Shown here: positions 21,076-29,220 of the stretch, piece after piece | How the letters are laid out: every line of letters begins with the position of its first letter | How positions within the stretch are numbered: the first letter of the stretch is position 1 | Assembly (NCBI GenBank): GCA_903957365.1 | Contig: CAJBPB010000276.1 | Coordinates: 1 to 64,000 of the forward strand | Length of the DNA: 64,000 nt | From: an uncultured Bacteroidota bacterium | GTDB lineage: Bacteria; Bacteroidota; Bacteroidia; Bacteroidales; F082 | Reading direction: 5' to 3' | Notes under the pieces: generated by a model | Seen by the model: the letters and a program-made list of their open reading frames with translations, nothing else | What the model was told of the DNA's origin: nothing | Databases searched by the model: none | Made by a program: the position numbers and the translations under genes

Positions 21076-24003
21076 ATGAAAAAAAGATCTTTACTTTTTT
21101 GCACACTTCTAATTATCACACTGTTATCCGGTAATTCACTTACTGCCGGTAGTGTAACGGATGGGAAGAAAAATGTTGCAGATGTCAACAATTCTCTCTC
21201 TTCCGAAGATTATTTACACAGTTTAAGAGCCAATCAGAGCACCAATCTGGTGAATCCGGCGGATGTTGTAAGCGCTGCCAATGGCGCAATGTTATTGACA
21301 TCTGGTAGAAGTGCCAATGTTTTGGAATGGACTTCACTCGGACCTGATAATTATGGTGGCAAAACCACTTCGATTGTTTATGACAATCGTGATGCGAGCG
21401 GTAAAACTGTTTTCGCCGGTTCAGTTGGCGGTGGCGTTTGGAAATCAATAAATGAAGGTATTACCTGGCAAAAAATCTCTGATTTAAGCCTGATGGTCAG
21501 TTGTATGGTTCAGACCGCCAATGGAGATATTTATGTTGGTACCGGTGATGGTTTCAGTGCTCAAACCTATAATGGACTTGGTGATATGGGTTATACCACA
21601 GGATTTACCGGAACAGGTTTGTACAAATCGACCGATGGCCAGAATTTTATTCAAATCCCATCTACTGTACCTGTTGCAAATGATAATGTGGCAGAATGGG
21701 CGTTTATCTATAAAATAGCCATGAATGATGGTGTTATTTATGCTGCTACAAATACCGGTTTAAAATATTCTACCGATGGTGGATCAACCTGGAGTATTGC
21801 CAAAGATAATGAAAATAATGAACTAAATTTAATTTCTACCGACGTTGAGCTTGGTTCAACAGGTATCGTCGTTGCTGCAGTCAATAACAAATGTTATATT
21901 TCAAAAACAGGAAGTTACGACGGATTTGTGAACAGATCTACCGGTGATTCCATCTCTTTACCAATGGCAGATGTGTTTCGTACTGAAATTGCCATCGCAC
22001 CTTCTGACAACAATGTCCTTTATGCAAATTGTACCAATACGCTTGGTACTCATATCGGAATTTATCGTTCAGTTGATCAGGGTGATAATTGGGAAGTGAT
22101 TCTGCCTGCAACAAATTCTGTTAATATTTTTGGAACGCGCGGAAACTATAACAATAAAATTACAGTTTTTCCTGATGATGCAAATCGCATTTTAGTTGGA
22201 GGAAACAGCCTTTGGCAAGGTAAAATGATCGTTGAGGGTGGATTATTCTCGTGGGATCAGAAATCAGTTTCTGGTGGAGGAATATTTTTTCCTGAATACC
22301 TGCATCTTGGACAACAAACGATTTGCTTTAAACCTGGTGCAAGCAATATTTTCTTTGCAGGTACTGATGGTGGTGTTTTTAAAGGTACTATTGCAGGTGA
22401 TGATTTTACTTTTGCAACAAGCAACCGAAACTACATTACAACCCAGTTTTATACTGTAGCACCTTCCGGACAAGAAAACAGGGTTATGGGTGGAGCGCAG
22501 GATCAGGGGACCATTTATGTTTCAGGTACCGGTAATACAACCACACAAGGTGAAGAACTCTGGTTCCAGGGAGGATTCTCCTATTCAGGGCACGGTGGAC
22601 CCTGTGTGATTTCAACGATTCAGACAGAAGCAATTGTAATGAGTGCAGTTGCCGGCGAAATGGACAGGTCAGAAGATCTTGCGTTTACAATTTCGACCCA
22701 GTTCCTTCAGTCAAGTGGTATGGGTAATTCACAGGCCTTTAAAACACCTATCGCACTTTGGGAAAGTTATGAAGATTACAACAGCCGCGACTCGGTTACT
22801 TTCCGTGCTAAAAGACCGTATGTTGCCGGTTCAGTACTGAAAGTGAAAAGCAAAAACAATGATCATCCATTCTATTATAAATTACCCATAGGCGGAAATT
22901 TGTCAATTGGTGATACTTTAAGAGTGAAAGATATTGTAGCAACCAAACTATTCATTGCTGTTGCGAATAAATTATGGATGACAAAGGAATTCTTAAATTT
23001 TGGAAAAACCCCTGAATGGTTTGAGTTGGCTAACACCAGTGTTGGTTATTCAGGAATTCCTCAGTCATTGGCCTATTCTTCCGATGCAAATCATGTGTTT
23101 GTTGGGATGCGTAATGGAAAACTATTCCGTGTATCTAATATCGCATTGGCTTATAACTATGACCGTGCTGACGTTAACAGTCCTGATTGTATTATTGCTA
23201 CCAAAGAAATTCCACTTGTAATTCCCGGAACTTCAACCCCAATATCACAAGCAATAACTTCAGTAGCTGTTGATCCCCAAAATCCTAATAATGTATTGAT
23301 AACCCTTGGTAATTATGGTAATGATCATTATGTTCTCATGAGTACCAATGCGCTTTCCGAAATACCAACATTTGTTTCAAAACAAGGTAATTTGCCAAAG
23401 ATGCCGGTGTACGCTTCAATCATTGAAATGAATAATTCAAATGTGGTAATTCTTGGAACCGAACAAGGTATTTTTATCTCGGAGAATATTGGTGGTACAC
23501 CAACATGGGAAGCAAATCAGAGTGGAATTGGAAATGTTCCTGTCTTTGATTTGAAACAACAATTGATAAACAAAACAGCAGACACTGTCCGTTTGATAAA
23601 TGGACCTGAAATTACTGTATTAAATTATCCCGGAACAAACAATTACGGAATTATTTATGGCGCTACATTCGGAAAAGGATTATATCGCTGCAATCAATAT
23701 AGAAGACCTGTTGGCGTATTTGAAAATCCTTCAAAAGCGAAAAATCAGCAGCTAAATGTACGTGTATATCCTAATCCGGTAAACGGAATAGCCTTTGTTG
23801 ATTTTGAGTTGTCTAAAAACAGCAGTGTTGGTTACAGCATTTTTGATTTGACAGGAAAAGTTATGCAGCAAAAAAATATCGGTGTAAAGAGCGCTGGTAA
23901 AATACAATTGGAACTTCCGGTGAATGAGCTCAAACAAGGTTCATATATTTTACGAATCGAGAGTGCCGAAACTACTGGTGTAGTTAAATTCCTGGTGTAT
24001 TAA
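21076..24003 (+). CDS. T9SS-sorted BNR/sortilin-like beta-propeller protein
   Basis: The 975-residue secreted protein has a signal peptide (about 1-24). The body carries repeated BNR/Asp-box segments such as GGVWKSINEGITWQKI, GLYKSTDGQNF, GLKYSTDGGSTW and GIYRSVDQGDNWEVI, typical of Vps10/sialidase-type propellers. The last 80 residues form a T9SS type A sorting domain (VYPNPVNG, then the GKVMQQ and GSYILRI motifs), so it is exported by the type IX system and attached or released at the surface. No sialidase catalytic set was identified, so binding or structure is likelier than catalysis. The next gene, 28 bases downstream, is also T9SS cargo. Confidence 0.85.
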   Translation: MKKRSLLFCTLLIITLLSGNSLTAGSVTDGKKNVADVNNSLSSEDYLHSLRANQSTNLVNPADVVSAANGAMLLTSGRSANVLEWTSLGPDNYGGKTTSIVYDNRDASGKTVFAGSVGGGVWKSINEGITWQKISDLSLMVSCMVQTANGDIYVGTGDGFSAQTYNGLGDMGYTTGFTGTGLYKSTDGQNFIQIPSTVPVANDNVAEWAFIYKIAMNDGVIYAATNTGLKYSTDGGSTWSIAKDNENNELNLISTDVELGSTGIVVAAVNNKCYISKTGSYDGFVNRSTGDSISLPMADVFRTEIAIAPSDNNVLYANCTNTLGTHIGIYRSVDQGDNWEVILPATNSVNIFGTRGNYNNKITVFPDDANRILVGGNSLWQGKMIVEGGLFSWDQKSVSGGGIFFPEYLHLGQQTICFKPGASNIFFAGTDGGVFKGTIAGDDFTFATSNRNYITTQFYTVAPSGQENRVMGGAQDQGTIYVSGTGNTTTQGEELWFQGGFSYSGHGGPCVISTIQTEAIVMSAVAGEMDRSEDLAFTISTQFLQSSGMGNSQAFKTPIALWESYEDYNSRDSVTFRAKRPYVAGSVLKVKSKNNDHPFYYKLPIGGNLSIGDTLRVKDIVATKLFIAVANKLWMTKEFLNFGKTPEWFELANTSVGYSGIPQSLAYSSDANHVFVGMRNGKLFRVSNIALAYNYDRADVNSPDCIIATKEIPLVIPGTSTPISQAITSVAVDPQNPNNVLITLGNYGNDHYVLMSTNALSEIPTFVSKQGNLPKMPVYASIIEMNNSNVVILGTEQGIFISENIGGTPTWEANQSGIGNVPVFDLKQQLINKTADTVRLINGPEITVLNYPGTNNYGIIYGATFGKGLYRCNQYRRPVGVFENPSKAKNQQLNVRVYPNPVNGIAFVDFELSKNSSVGYSIFDLTGKVMQQKNIGVKSAGKIQLELPVNELKQGSYILRIESAETTGVVKFLVY

Positions 24004-24031
24004 TATTAGTTATCAAAAAAAACGGAATACA

Positions 24032-26305
24032 ATGAAAAATATTTTACAGATTATTTCCATCGTTTTAATTTTTAACCTTTCTGCTTATTCACAAACCCGT
24101 ATTTATACGCCGGTTCTCAAAGCACCTGAAGATGTAGCAATCAATCAGATGCCAGATGTGTTGCTTGATTGGGATGCTGTTACCGGAGAAGGTACTGAAA
24201 TATCATACGATCTCCAGTTAGCACAATCCTCGGATTTTAGTGATGCAGTTTCTTTTACAAACCTTACGGTTACTTCGGCAACCATGAGTCAGTTGAAATT
24301 TAAAGAATCGTATTACTGGCGTGTTCGTGCCCACGATGGCATCGCAATTTCAGATTGGTCAGCAGCATGGTCTTTTAGCGTTGTTTCAACGGTTACAATT
24401 ACTGCACCGAATAATCAATCTACCCAAAATCCTGATCCGCTGGTAAAATGGAATATTCTTACAGGTATTACCCATTATGATATTCAAATTGATACGGCGT
24501 ACAGCTGGCGTGTTGAGAATTCTGGTGTAACTACCAAGTTAGCAGACGTTTTTGAGGTTGATGCAAATAATGTCTGGGCTGTTGGTGACGGTGGAAAAAT
24601 CCTTCACAGAACTGACGGTACCTGGAGTATGGTGGAAAGTGGTGTAACCAATAATCTGACCGATGTATTTTTTGTAGACGCATCCCATGGATGGGCTGCT
24701 GGTGAGAATGGTACAATTTTACAATATGATGGTGCGAACTGGTCTACAATGACTTCAGGCGTCACAGTTACTTTAAATGGTTTGTTCTTTACAAGTGCCA
24801 CAAACGGATACGTTGTTGGAAATTCAGGGACATCGCTTCATTTTGATGGTACTACCTGGACTAGTTTTAATACGGGTGTAACTTTAGACCTTTTTGCAAT
24901 TCATGGATTGGATGATCAACATATTTGGGCAGTAGGTAAATCAGGAAATTATTCTTATTATAATGGCGTCTCCTGGATAAACAGTACAGTTTCAACACGT
25001 GATTTATTAGGAGTTTGGGCTTTAAGCCCGGACAAAGTATGGATTCCATCCAAAACTGGCCGAATATATTTCTGGGATGGTACAACCTGGTCAGAACAAG
25101 TATCGGGATCAACCCGTGACTTGTATGATGTTTGTTTCCTTGATGAAAATAATGGTTATATAGTCGGACGTAACGGAACCTTACTTTATTATAATGGAAC
25201 ACAATGGAAATCTACAGCAAGTGGAACAGCACAGGATTTGAACAGCATTCATTTGAAAAATGATGGAACAGGTTATATTGTAGGTAATGCTGGTGCTGTG
25301 GTATCATTCCAGGGTGAAGGGTTTAACAGTGCCTATCTGAAAAGTTATACAGCAGAAGGAACAATTCTTGAATTTAAATTCAGCAATCTTTTGTTTGGTA
25401 AAACCCATTATTTCAGAATGCGCGCCCGACACGATCTTTCGACTTCAGACTGGTCACCGGCCAATTCGTTTTTTGTAGTTGCTAGTCCAACATTGGATAC
25501 TCCGGTAGATGATGCTACTGATATTGCATTGGATACTTTGGTAAAATGGGACGAGTTGACAGGAGTCGTTAAATATGGTATTCAAATGTCAACCAATGAA
25601 ACTTTCACTGACCCACTGTATTTTGAATCGAGTATTGGTGAGTATCGTTTTCAGGACCTTGTTTTTGGTACAGATTACTTCTGGCGTGTAAATGCACGTC
25701 ACGCAGGTGGCGTTTCAGAATGGTCAGCAGCAAATAAATTTACTACCATTAACACTGTAACATTACTTTTGCCTGAGGACAATGCAGTCGACATTAATCT
25801 GTTACCTCATTATACATGGGAAGAAATCAGAGGAGCTGAAAAATATATGCTTCAGTTTGATATAAATGCAAACTTTAGTGAACCAACAACACATATTGTG
25901 ACTACTTCTTTTTATCAGACACAGTTTTTATTGGAGAAACAAACTGCCTATTATTGGAGGTTAAAAGCAATTCAAGCGCTTGATTCTACTGACTGGAGTA
26001 CTGTCCGCACTTTCACAACAGCCAATGGTGCTTCGATCATTGAATCAAAATCACAGTCATTTACATTGTATCCTAACCCTTCACAAGGCGAATTGAATAT
26101 TGTTTTTAAGGTTGGTAATGCCGAACTTGTAAAAATAGAGATATACAATTTGTTAGGGAATAGTGTATTTGAAGATAGTTTTATACCTATGATTGGTGAA
26201 GTTAAGAAGAATTATGATCTTCGTGGAACACTTAAAAAAGGTGTTTATCTGGTAAGACTGGTTGATAGTAAGAAAGTCTTTACACAAAAACTTACAATTG
26301 AATAG
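24032..26305 (+). CDS. T9SS-sorted Fn3-like protein with nested seven-repeat propeller
   Basis: This 757-residue surface protein has a signal peptide (1-20), a fibronectin III-like domain (about 30-118), a second one split into 121-156 and 431-483, then two more (486-573 and 575-663), and a T9SS type A domain (675-757, LYPNPSQGELNI). Between the halves of the second domain lie seven repeats of about 39 residues, starting near 170, 209, 248, 287, 325, 364 and 403, with the pattern L-V-F...G-VG-G-L-DG-W. These are YCF48/photosystem II-assembly-like propeller repeats. Binding or adhesion is the likely role; ligand unknown. Confidence 0.82.
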   Translation: MKNILQIISIVLIFNLSAYSQTRIYTPVLKAPEDVAINQMPDVLLDWDAVTGEGTEISYDLQLAQSSDFSDAVSFTNLTVTSATMSQLKFKESYYWRVRAHDGIAISDWSAAWSFSVVSTVTITAPNNQSTQNPDPLVKWNILTGITHYDIQIDTAYSWRVENSGVTTKLADVFEVDANNVWAVGDGGKILHRTDGTWSMVESGVTNNLTDVFFVDASHGWAAGENGTILQYDGANWSTMTSGVTVTLNGLFFTSATNGYVVGNSGTSLHFDGTTWTSFNTGVTLDLFAIHGLDDQHIWAVGKSGNYSYYNGVSWINSTVSTRDLLGVWALSPDKVWIPSKTGRIYFWDGTTWSEQVSGSTRDLYDVCFLDENNGYIVGRNGTLLYYNGTQWKSTASGTAQDLNSIHLKNDGTGYIVGNAGAVVSFQGEGFNSAYLKSYTAEGTILEFKFSNLLFGKTHYFRMRARHDLSTSDWSPANSFFVVASPTLDTPVDDATDIALDTLVKWDELTGVVKYGIQMSTNETFTDPLYFESSIGEYRFQDLVFGTDYFWRVNARHAGGVSEWSAANKFTTINTVTLLLPEDNAVDINLLPHYTWEEIRGAEKYMLQFDINANFSEPTTHIVTTSFYQTQFLLEKQTAYYWRLKAIQALDSTDWSTVRTFTTANGASIIESKSQSFTLYPNPSQGELNIVFKVGNAELVKIEIYNLLGNSVFEDSFIPMIGEVKKNYDLRGTLKKGVYLVRLVDSKKVFTQKLTIE
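24500..25315 (+). repeat. Coding region of seven propeller repeats
   Basis: This stretch encodes residues 157-428 of the Fn3-like T9SS protein. Successive repeats are spaced 39, 39, 39, 38, 39 and 39 residues apart and share the pattern of a hydrophobic strand, a W/Y-x-VG turn, G-x-G/S-T, and a DG-x-x-W strand. The DNA copies have diverged, so the duplication is not recent. Confidence 0.75.
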
Positions 26306-26328
26306 ACGCAAAATGAATTCAATAACAG

Positions 26329-26359
26329 AGCCCTTCGAAGTTATTTGAAGGGCTTTTTT
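26329..26359 (+). terminator. Rho-independent terminator after the T9SS cargo pair
   Basis: An 8-base-pair GC-rich stem (AGCCCTTC at 26329-26336 with GAAGGGCT at 26347-26354) is followed by a run of six T. It sits 24 bases after the stop of the Fn3/propeller gene and should end that transcript. Confidence 0.88.
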
Positions 26360-26802
26360 GTTGAAATATTTTGTAATTTAACACCATTTATATTTGAAGA
26401 GATGTGTTGAAGATAATGCAAAAGTGAATTTTTACAAGGATTTTCCAATATAGTATTAGTCTTTTATAGTTTCAGACACAATTTCATCCAGCGCTAATTA
26501 ATATGATAAGTAGTTCAAAGTCAATAACAATTCCTTGCCATTTTAAGATTCAATAGTTTATGTTTTGCGATTTAAAAAAACATCACAGATGAATAATAAA
26601 TACGAATTAATTAAGAATTGGTTAATATCTATGGGATATTTTCGCCAAGTAATTTAACTGTGCAAGCAGTTAGTTTAGCATATTTGGTGCCGATTTGTTT
26701 GTTGCAAATTCAAAATTCAGTTAAAATAATTGATTTAAATGAATAGCTTTGCTTTAAAATTAGTGATATTGTTGTTTAAAAATCTTTATTCACTGACAAA
26801 GT
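26360..26802. other. Intergenic region, no gene seen
   Basis: This AT-rich stretch between the terminator and the DUF2490 gene holds no convincing reading frame, tRNA or repeat. A TATATTTG box near 26389 matches the -7 consensus but is over 400 bases from the next gene. An upstream regulatory leader or small RNA is possible but not supported. Confidence 0.5.
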
Positions 26803-26886
26803 ATGTCAATTCATGATCAAATGTTCGCAGGATTTCTTGAAAAAAGAAACACAGACTGTATGTTAAAACAGATCAATAAACTGCTG

Positions 26887-27669
26887 ATGGACAATTTTGC
26901 ATTGGCAATGCTGACTTTTTTTATATTCTTTTTGTCGTTTTTTGTTAATGCTCAAACCCGCAGTTATTCGCAATTGGGGAATGAGTTTCAGATTGTTCGG
27001 GCCATAAATGATAAGCTTGCAGCCGAGGTGTATTTTGGTGGTACTTTCAGTAATACACCTTCGGATAAAAACGTGTTGAGTACAAATATTCAAAGGTATA
27101 TTTCGGGTTGGATGCACTATTATTATTCCCCACGCTGGAAATTTTCTTCCTCATTGGCCTACTATTATAATAAAGATGTGCCTGATATAGGTCAGTATTT
27201 CTCTCCTGAATGGAGGTTAAGTCTGCAAGGCACCTATTACCTTAACAAAACAGGCTTCTCACTGCTTACAAGAATGCGGGGTGAATTCAGACTTATGATG
27301 AATGAAGATGGAGTGTACGAGGATAAGTATCGCTATCGTCAAATGCTTAAATACATGAAGCCTGTTAATGGGAAAGTGCTTAGGAAAGGGGTCGTTTATT
27401 TTGTTACCTCAGAAGAGTTAATGTTTAAACCATCTGCAAAAACTACCGGTGTGCCCTTTTTCGATCGAAATCGCTTTGAAATAGGCGGTGGCTATCTTGT
27501 AACGGATAATATTCAATTTGAATTGACATACATTAATGAGTTTGTTCCCCGTGACAATGGCAATGAACTTTACAATATAATTGCAATTACTGCGACATTC
27601 AATAACCCGTTGTCTAATCTGAAAAACAGGATATCATCCTTGTCTTTAAACGCAAGAGAAGAAGATTAA
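26887..27669 (+). CDS. DUF2490 family outer-membrane protein
   Basis: The 260-residue protein begins with a signal peptide (LTFFIFFLSFFVNAQ). The rest is a run of amphipathic beta-strands rich in aromatic residues, with DUF2490-like segments YISGWMHYYYSPRWKFSSS, RYRQMLKY and FDRNRFEIGGGYLV. It is probably an outer-membrane beta-barrel of unknown function. The start at 26887 was chosen because it leads directly into the signal peptide; starts at 26803, 26821 and 26860 would add a charged extension. Its stop codon directly abuts that of the convergent gene. Confidence 0.75.
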   Translation: MDNFALAMLTFFIFFLSFFVNAQTRSYSQLGNEFQIVRAINDKLAAEVYFGGTFSNTPSDKNVLSTNIQRYISGWMHYYYSPRWKFSSSLAYYYNKDVPDIGQYFSPEWRLSLQGTYYLNKTGFSLLTRMRGEFRLMMNEDGVYEDKYRYRQMLKYMKPVNGKVLRKGVVYFVTSEELMFKPSAKTTGVPFFDRNRFEIGGGYLVTDNIQFELTYINEFVPRDNGNELYNIIAITATFNNPLSNLKNRISSLSLNAREED

Positions 27670-28194
27670 CTATTTGTTTTTCTTCTCTTTCTCATCATTT
27701 ATAAAACAGTTTAATTGCTCTTTAAGCGCTGCTTTATGTAGTTTAAACATATAGGATCTAACTCCTTCCTCTCCAAGCATATTAATCTTTGCTTCAATTA
27801 CTTCAAAATTGGTCATCGGATCAAGATCTTTTTTATCAATGAGATAAAGTATTGTCATTACTGTATCTTTATGAATATATCGGGTGTCAAAATGCTCAAG
27901 TCTGTATGTATTACCATCCGAAAGTTTCAGTTCAAGTTCTTCTTTTAGTTTGTTTCCAATAGGTTCTTCAGGGAAAGGGATGGGTAGAAGCTCAAGAAAA
28001 TAATTTTCTTTATCGGTAACGATGCCTCCTGTCAATGATTTTGTCTTTGTCCAATAAAAATTTACCGGTTCTACATAATACATCATCGATCCGTCAGCTG
28101 AAACACGGTTAAGAATTTCACATTGAGAGTATAAATGGGTTGATACTGTCAGTAATCCTAACAATAATGCTGTGTATTTTAGTCTGTAATTCAT
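27670..28194 (-). CDS. Exported protein of unknown function
   Basis: The 174-residue product has a signal peptide (about 1-23, ending THLYSQ). I do not recognise the family. The mature part is mixed alpha/beta with a segment on KLSDGNTYRLEHFDTRY and a lysine/glutamate-rich tail (NDEKEKKNK). It is convergent with the DUF2490 gene, with no base between the two stops. A TACATTTG box on the minus strand ends four bases before its ATG, suggesting a leaderless transcript. Confidence 0.65.
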   Translation of the reverse strand: MNYRLKYTALLLGLLTVSTHLYSQCEILNRVSADGSMMYYVEPVNFYWTKTKSLTGGIVTDKENYFLELLPIPFPEEPIGNKLKEELELKLSDGNTYRLEHFDTRYIHKDTVMTILYLIDKKDLDPMTNFEVIEAKINMLGEEGVRSYMFKLHKAALKEQLNCFINDEKEKKNK

Positions 28195-28440: not shown

Positions 28441-29220
28441 TTAGTATTTATTCATACGATTGCCGAACGAAAAACCAATGTAAAAGGTCAGAAAGGCTGG
28501 TTGATAAGATGATTCAGCCATTACAGTTACCCCAGCTGGAAAAAAATCAAGCATCACACCTGCTTCAATGGCTTTCACTTTTGTTTTAATTTCTCCAAAC
28601 TCAAAACTGAAACCACTCCGGAAAAAGGCCCCAGGTACCACGGTTATTTCGTTCAATCCTTTAGAGTAAGGTGCCCGACCGTAAATATCGTCCCACGAAA
28701 TGTCAGGGTCAAATTGTTCAGTTACAATATCATATAAATAGGCTCCGCCAGATGACTGATTGATCTTTACTACATACAGATAGTAAGGTTTTTCAATGGC
28801 TAAAGATGCGCCTATTTCGTAAATCCATCTTACTTCTACGCCTCCCCAGTAGGGTTTGCCATTTAAAAGTTTTCGATACCCAAATCCTGCCCGTGCTACA
28901 ATAACATCATTCATTTTGCCGTAAACATACCTTCTCGAATTGCTGTAATAAGGGTTTATGGTTTTGATTTGTTTCGGTGAACGCATTGTTACCAACTCAA
29001 AGGAGAAAACACGCGTATTGAATGCGTTTATATTTTTCCCCATGCGATAGCCCATACCTAATCCAAGATTATGTGCGATGGCCTGTCCGAATCGCTCATG
29101 ACTGTATATTATCATATTTTCTATGCTGTCGAAATCATCGCTGATCTGAGCATAGGTTGATGGCAAAGACACCCACAAAAAAGTGGCTGTTAATAATAAT
29201 ATTTGGAATAACCTTTTCAC
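28441..29220 (-). CDS. Probable outer-membrane protein, function unknown
   Basis: The 259-residue protein has a signal peptide (about 1-24, ending STYAQ). Repeated alternating hydrophobic strands (GLGMGYRMGK, VFSFELVTMR, VVARAGFGYRK, FYIGFSFGNRMNKY) and a terminal aromatic residue point to an outer-membrane beta-barrel. It is not assigned to a named family. The gene is alone on the minus strand, upstream of a small lipoprotein gene on the same strand. Confidence 0.68.
   Translation of the reverse strand: MKRLFQILLLTATFLWVSLPSTYAQISDDFDSIENMIIYSHERFGQAIAHNLGLGMGYRMGKNINAFNTRVFSFELVTMRSPKQIKTINPYYSNSRRYVYGKMNDVIVARAGFGYRKLLNGKPYWGGVEVRWIYEIGASLAIEKPYYLYVVKINQSSGGAYLYDIVTEQFDPDISWDDIYGRAPYSKGLNEITVVPGAFFRSGFSFEFGEIKTKVKAIEAGVMLDFFPAGVTVMAESSYQPAFLTFYIGFSFGNRMNKY

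Follow-up and report, generated by a model that had tools for sequence, protein, structure and literature searches.

A YCF48-type propeller predicted to interrupt a fibronectin type III-like domain in a putative type IX secretion cargo of Bacteroidales

Introduction

Domain insertions are usually visible only in their finished state. In the accessible part of one study, the A1-B-A2 arrangement is reported for 20% of multidomain proteins, with the insert smaller than its host in 77.0% of insertion events (median 115 versus 199 residues) (PMC13114784); its main text contains none of the terms propeller, fibronectin, Ig-like or immunoglobulin. Among surface proteins of the type IX secretion system (T9SS), PorZ from Porphyromonas gingivalis is described, in the portion of the source available, as containing two beta-propellers and a sorting-type domain, and as binding A-LPS in vitro (PMC8545088).

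Here, we describe a gene from an uncultured Bacteroidales bacterium, located in a 64,000-nucleotide stretch of contig CAJBPB010000276.1 (the window). A preliminary description of this DNA had proposed that a propeller sits in a loop of a fibronectin type III-like (Fn3) domain, an architecture not known to it for this family. Within the open-access literature, as far as its texts were accessible and with most subscription papers outside that scope, we found no paper on an Fn3 domain interrupted by a propeller. Our reading, held at a probability of about 0.85, is that the gene encodes a T9SS-exported stalk of Fn3 domains carrying a propeller within its second domain, that the propeller was inserted once and then lost or exchanged in several lineages, and that it would act as a binding head.

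Results

Domain organization and predicted export

The features of the gene, and of its upstream neighbor, are as follows (genomes, contigs, loci, families and genera carry our own handles G, C, L, f and g).

21076..24003, + strand: upstream neighbor, putative T9SS cargo of 975 residues, sorting domain (above cut-off) and weak BNR-type repeats
24032..26305, + strand: whole gene, 757 residues, putative T9SS cargo with nested Fn3-propeller (open reading frame, Pfam, NCBIfam)
24032..24091, + strand: signal peptide, residues 1-20 (by eye; hydrophobic residues 4-17)
24110..24385, + strand: Fn3-1, residues 27-118 (PF00041 on residues 1-118: E 2e-5, 25.1 bits, cut-off 25)
24386..24496, + strand: N-terminal half of Fn3-2, strands A, B and C, residues 119-155, ending in D154-T155 (alignments, profile)
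24503..25321, + strand: inserted seven-bladed YCF48-type propeller, residues 158-430 (PF14870 at 56 bits, predicted model, Foldseek)
24503..24538, + strand: residues 158-169, SWRVENSGVTTK, at the start of the insert, taken to complete blade 7 and close the ring (repeat layout, as for all blades below)
24539..24655, + strand: blade 1, residues 170-208
24656..24772, + strand: blade 2, residues 209-247
24773..24889, + strand: blade 3, residues 248-286
24890..25003, + strand: blade 4, residues 287-324
25004..25120, + strand: blade 5, residues 325-363
25121..25237, + strand: blade 6, residues 364-402
25238..25321, + strand: blade 7, incomplete, residues 403-430
25322..25489, + strand: C-terminal half of Fn3-2, strands C', E, F and G, residues 431-486, starting with F431-x-S433 (alignments, profile)
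25490..25762, + strand: Fn3-3, residues 487-577 (Pfam, profile, alignment)
25763..26041, + strand: Fn3-4, residues 578-670 (profile, alignment)
26066..26299, + strand: T9SS type A sorting domain, residues 679-756 (PF18962, 44.7 bits, cut-off 27; TIGR04183, 44.3 bits, cut-off 23)

The layout predicts a protein exported through Sec and the T9SS, with a stalk of four Fn3-like domains. With cleavage read by eye, the mature N terminus would be Gln-21, which is kept in 47 of 51 nested homologues and is read as the new N terminus on the basis of the Q-rule of Bacteroidetes signal peptides, as given in the accessible part of the source (PMC5837995). The sorting domain, at the opposite end from the propeller, would serve export and surface attachment. 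The Pfam fn3 model scored 37.4 bits on the whole protein (cut-off 25), its best stretch being Fn3-1; Fn3-3 reached 20.8 bits, below that cut-off, and Fn3-4 was matched by PF25788 alone (E 0.007). No DNA tandem repeats were reported within 24000-26400.

Repeat structure and predicted fold of the propeller

The insert contains six repeats of 38-39 residues, starting at residues 170, 209, 248, 287, 325 and 364, and a short seventh (403-430) whose missing part is read in residues 158-169, giving seven blades with the last split across the two ends of the insert. Trp-159 is present in 47 of 51 nested homologues. The preliminary description had placed seven YCF48-like repeats of about 39 residues at 24500-25315 (residues 157-428); the repeat type, number and place stand, with one of the seven split, and the boundaries shift to residues 158-430 (24503-25321). 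PF14870 (YCF48) scored 50.3 bits on the whole protein and 56 bits on the insert alone (cut-off 27), and YCF48 was the best match in a phmmer sequence search (E 3e-9). Assignment as a true Ycf48 photosystem II assembly factor was rejected, the NCBIfam model NF010237 scoring 44.8 bits against an equivalog cut-off of 326.

A single-sequence structure model of residues 118-486 was poor (mean pLDDT 57), with the Fn3 part not formed; YCF48 still ranked first in the fold search with this model, in which the ring was unclosed (rmsd 8-10 Å). A better model (mean pLDDT 74, pTM 0.65) was obtained from an alignment of four stretches of the same protein. Foldseek ranked YCF48 (5ojr) first for this model (E 1.4e-14, TM 0.74 of target), and VIA-align matched it to a designed propeller with seven blades (272 aligned residues, rmsd 2.2 Å, Z 32.1), with many propellers tied. 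The aligned part, model residues 41-312, corresponds to residues 158-429 of the protein, which are thus modeled as a closed seven-bladed propeller.

Blade register was compared between nested members. For L001 against L055, the in-register value was 388 versus at most 325 otherwise, and against L057 it was 384 versus at most 342; for L001 against L056, a rotated register (392) beat the in-register one (356), and a few other pairs were likewise better rotated.

The two halves of the second Fn3 domain

Residues 121-156 and 431-483 had first been matched by eye to the front and back halves of the neighboring Fn3-like domains. To assess this, Fn3-1, Fn3-3 and Fn3-4 were aligned with residues 118-486 using MAFFT. 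A single gap spanned the entire propeller, with invariant P, W, G, Y and Q before it and invariant L, R, A, W, S and F after it, bearing out the earlier observation.

In a junction alignment of 43 nested and 30 plain (propeller-free) homologues, the insert occurred at the same point in 43/43 nested forms, and nothing was present there in 30/30 plain forms; a second, partly overlapping set of 22 nested and 25 plain rows agreed on the insertion point. Nested forms read D-T (or D-S), propeller, F-x-S/T, while plain forms usually have three residues between the flanks, which vary in some of them. Among the nested homologues, Asp-154 is conserved in 51/51, Thr-155 in 50/51, Phe-431 in 51/51 and Ser-433 in 48/51. 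In genome G224, the tblastn matches break off at query residue 158 and pick up again at residue 431, with no bases between them.

A domain search of the two halves joined without the insert, as originally proposed, gave no fn3 match with general Pfam models (PF16656 alone, E 0.11), after which a profile of 103 columns built from uninterrupted Fn3-2 domains was adopted. On this profile, the N-terminal half scored 29.7 bits (columns 2-45), the C-terminal half 52.9 bits (columns 48-101) and the joined halves 87.4 bits (columns 2-101). Controls scored 75.0 bits with the halves in reversed order, 28-31 bits for the N-terminal half with a shuffled C-terminal half, and 53-58 bits for a shuffled N-terminal half with the C-terminal half (three shuffles each), so that the joined match goes beyond chance. 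Fn3-1, Fn3-3 and Fn3-4 of the window protein scored 66-83 bits, below the joined halves, and the joined halves matched the profile in 43/43 nested members (60-90 bits).

The better model gave two strands of at least three residues and one of two in the N-terminal half and four strands in the C-terminal half, the number and order expected of an Fn3 domain, at block means of 48-72 pLDDT; all 50 matches listed in the structure comparison fell on the propeller part, with no Fn3 chain among them, which does not speak against an Fn3 fold. The structure prediction suggested at the outset, run here on residues 118-486, yields a closed propeller flanked by strands in the number and order expected of Fn3, the latter at low pLDDT.

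The failure of the single-sequence model on the flanks and the missing Pfam fn3 match would also suit flanks that are separate small strands or linkers, or two genes merged by a sequencing or assembly error. We regard this as extremely improbable, given the uninterrupted orthologues at the same locus, the fit of the joined halves in every nested member and the many separate assemblies sharing the architecture. An assembly artefact or gene fusion, which had been named as one of the cases that would overturn the nested reading, was dropped and is excluded in practice, since the architecture recurs in 55 of 149 sampled family genomes and in other families. With an intact Fn3-2 present at the same locus in relatives and the joined halves fitting its profile, the comparison of sequences confirms the proposal that a predicted YCF48-type propeller sits in a loop of an Fn3 domain, interrupting Fn3-2 between putative strands C and C'.

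Uninterrupted orthologues at the same locus

The plain orthologues (for example L060, L061, L063 and L075) are proteins of approximately 500 residues with four Fn3 domains and a sorting domain. They resemble the window gene in locus, domains and usually in the residues flanking the site, but lack the propeller, with usually three residues leading from D-T to F.

Upstream of the window gene lie batA- and batD-type genes, TPR genes and then the T9SS protein at 21076-24003, whose BNR match of 19.6 bits is below the cut-off of 27. This last gene adjoins the nested gene in 43/43 nested loci, window included, and the plain gene in 28/30 plain loci; of the two others, L062 lies where its contig stops and keeps the downstream genes, and L042 has none of the neighbors. 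Among nine further nested loci, the upstream gene is adjacent in six; two more, cut off by contig ends, retain their downstream genes, and L137 shows none of the neighbors. A homologue of the gene at 28441-29220 and a uracil-DNA glycosylase gene follow downstream in many nested and plain loci. These common neighbors identify the plain and nested forms as orthologues by position, rather than distant look-alikes. Relatives thus hold the same gene in the same place without the propeller, and the insertion is visible "before and after".

Several loci showed additional features. In the window, 26306-28194 holds a gap of approximately 500 bases and two genes (26803-27669 on the + strand and 27670-28194 on the - strand) ahead of the 28441-29220 gene, the homologue of which lies within about 270 to 730 bases of the nested gene in the same-genus loci L010-L012. 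L137 (5113-7407, G839:C154) is an additional, divergent nested copy that shares its genome with the syntenic L133, and no usual neighbor was matched in the 12.5 kb around it. L051 (3649-5995, G039:C295) is a nested orthologue with a frame change near Fn3-4, leaving two overlapping frames; this may be an assembly error.

Distribution of the nested form

A search for Fn3-propeller-Fn3 proteins in other Bacteroidota, as had been suggested, found the nested form in other families of the order and none in the class and phylum samples. Within the window's family, 55 of 149 sampled genomes carry it, the window's own included, or 43 of 101 better assemblies (E 1e-60); among the matches listed in this sample, no nested form was found in genera g14, g5 and g7, nor in g3 except for G115. 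The order sample outside the family (295 genomes) contained nested forms in G194, G303 and G396 (f47), G250 and G349 (f103), G249 (f102), and G411 (f68), the last split over two contig pieces.

The nested form is therefore present in four other families of the order: f103 (2/2), f47 (3/3), f102 and f68. Nine f102 genomes comprised five nested and three plain. In genus g83 of f68, 14 of 17 genomes had a match: six were nested (G823, G824, G830, G834, G411 in its two contig pieces, and G829, for which the match begins only at residue 334), seven were plain (G215, G319, G825, G826, G827, G831 and G836), and G835, plain in Fn3-2, carries another extra domain.

No nested form was found outside the window's own genome in the class sample (395 genomes) or the phylum sample (395 genomes), with matches taken at E 1e-25. 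Viral contigs gave 20 loci with Fn3-like matches and no open reading frame of at least 150 residues matching the propeller profile, and a scan of genome contigs yielded a single locus, where a Polaribacter protein aligns to residues 488-663. The candidates scored per genome at first look were 7 (family), 3 (order), 2 (class) and 2 (phylum), with 13 in one further search; because these are few, and the thresholds were E 1e-60 and 1e-25, the absences hold at this search sensitivity only. One candidate from the phylum sample, G1094, was rejected: its match range of 157-479 had suggested nesting, and the protein is a tandem of about 14 blades. Another phylum-sample match, G1158:C4:703862-704653, is propeller-like and was read through two TGA codons.

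History of the insertion

To reconstruct the history of the insertion, the insert was cut out and the host parts of nested and plain proteins were compared. In a 73-row tree, nested hosts were scattered among plain ones, with three state changes, at least two forced by supported branches. Two 47-row trees each gave four changes, at least three forced; one omitted the long or divergent plain loci L041, L042, L072, L083 and L086 and most family-f1 rows, and the other used 22 nested and 25 plain rows picked for spread. The long Fn3-rich L039, L043, L044, L080 and L081, as well as L085 and L088, lay outside the junction alignment and the trees, and the partial G829 (L125) was in no tree. A single clade of nested hosts was rejected at p 0.037; this is not strong, and the group tested was defined only once the first tree was available.

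The propellers behaved differently. The inserted ones formed one clade, with 22/22 grouping apart from 17 stand-alone propellers (98/90) and, in a larger tree, 31/31 apart from 34 (100/93, and in all 200 bootstrap trees). Of the 17 stand-alone propellers added for the larger tree, 14 came from families that also hold nested forms. Stand-alone propellers were seven-blade slices cut using blade matches, most proteins that lacked seven clean blades in a row being dropped, and the shared 39-residue period and register of the nested propellers could aid their grouping in this clade. Stand-alone YCF48-like proteins of these bacteria (L003, L107, L093, L104, L142, L143, L146 and others) frequently carry approximately 7 or 14 blades, corresponding to one or two rings.

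One propeller clade in hosts that scatter among plain forms points to one old insertion followed by repeated loss or exchange, and the best-supported history, judged from these trees, would assign that insertion to an ancestor inside the order. A hot spot at this loop, receiving related propellers independently in about four lineages, would suit the three to four changes required by the host trees, two to three of them forced, and the p value above; the single clade of 31 nested propellers, excluding all 34 stand-alone ones, makes this improbable.

Alternatively, a propeller that arose once could have moved sideways between hosts by recombination in the flanking Fn3 sequence, its patchiness reflecting transfer instead of loss. 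Nested and plain forms coexist within g83, where nested hosts retain the long B-C loop of the local plain hosts, and recombination with a plain copy would restore the plain loop exactly with less difficulty than a deletion. The propeller-to-host distance ratios between nested families are 1.01-1.30 (without the divergent copy L137), compared with 1.09 (SD 0.13) within f1 and 1.21-1.42 within f102, f103, f47 and f68; f1-f68 (1.01) and f102-f68 (1.09) fall below the ratios within f68 (1.24) or f102 (1.40). Values between families that are lower than those within f102, f103, f47 and f68 could reflect saturation or transfer. However, they match the ratio within f1, and the propeller tree sorts by family (f1, f47, f102, f103 and f68) with long inner branches. 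The ratios fit loss and transfer alike; as the explanation of the patchy pattern, sideways movement is considered rather unlikely.

Discussion

In the architecture described here, a whole YCF48-type propeller, predicted to be seven-bladed, takes the place of the C-C' turn, usually three residues, of the second Fn3 domain. As the layout of the repeats and the predicted model suggest, the first strand of the propeller would complete its last blade, so that its own ends meet; the insert would then enter and leave at one point, which may be why the host Fn3 fold survives. This suggests a simple rule, namely that insertion is tolerated when the first strand of a propeller closes its ring and so brings the two ends together. 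Joined by two very short strands with no linker, the propeller would probably be fixed rigidly to one side of the stalk.

The analogy with PorZ makes a binding head the likeliest role for the propeller, which at the side of the Fn3 stalk may bind glycans, polymers or a partner protein. Conservation was calculated over 51 rows, without L051, whose frame is broken. The insert averages 2.29 bits per column, compared with 2.30-2.75 for the Fn3 parts and 1.98 for the sorting domain; being about equally conserved, it appears to be under constraint comparable to that of its host. In these rows, nearly all residues conserved in the propeller are W, G and D positions belonging to the repeat itself, with no obvious binding site. 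The propeller could instead be an assembly or docking module, for example for the neighboring T9SS protein (21076-24003), and not a receptor for outside ligands. That neighbor stands beside the gene in every one of the 43 nested loci, but also beside nearly all plain forms, so that the propeller is not what links the two genes, and we consider a docking role, though the foremost alternative, unlikely.

The Fn3 stalk seems to accept extra domains. At L139 (1708-3840, G835:C205), the same locus with a plain Fn3-2, approximately 190 extra residues occur near the start of Fn3-3, weakly resembling a sialidase-type carbohydrate-binding domain (PF22585, E 4e-5, 24 bits, below the cut-off of 27). About ten residues like the start of Fn3-3 precede them and add about one bit; this extra domain may thus be located between two domains instead of being nested in one. 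L177 (4804-7278, G392:C90), with the same upstream gene adjacent, has three cadherin-like repeats, identified by eye, before four Fn3 domains. Tentatively, the stalk may be a platform for binding domains in one bacterial order, on which the propeller was inserted once and then kept in some lineages and cleanly removed or swapped in others, also among members of a single genus, with L139 carrying another domain instead. If true, swapping heads while keeping the stalk would let these bacteria alter the binding properties of their surface.

Because many genomes carry this gene at one locus either with or without the 273-residue insert, the effect of insertion on a host of about 93 residues is directly testable, in terms of fold stability, T9SS export and ligand binding.

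Compared with known systems, the window's propeller is like the YCF48/PSII_BNR propeller (PF14870; PDB 2xbg and 5ojr) in repeat type and fold, but YCF48 is a photosystem II factor, whereas the propeller described here is an insert in a putative secreted T9SS protein. An animal adhesion protein is likewise nested without being homologous, with a vWFA-like binding domain of approximately 250 residues inserted in a domain; the hybrid domain of that protein is a smaller Ig-like sandwich. PorZ (5m11, Foldseek rank 36) shares with the window protein the T9SS surface context, propellers and a sorting-type domain, but has two propellers followed by that domain, with no Fn3 stalk and no nesting described in the accessible part of the source (PMC8545088). 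While the insert is mostly the smaller partner in domain insertions generally, as reported in the available text (PMC13114784), the propeller here is about three times the size of its host. Domain insertion as such is already known and common; the present case adds an Fn3 domain interrupted by a propeller, with its value lying in the before-and-after pairs.
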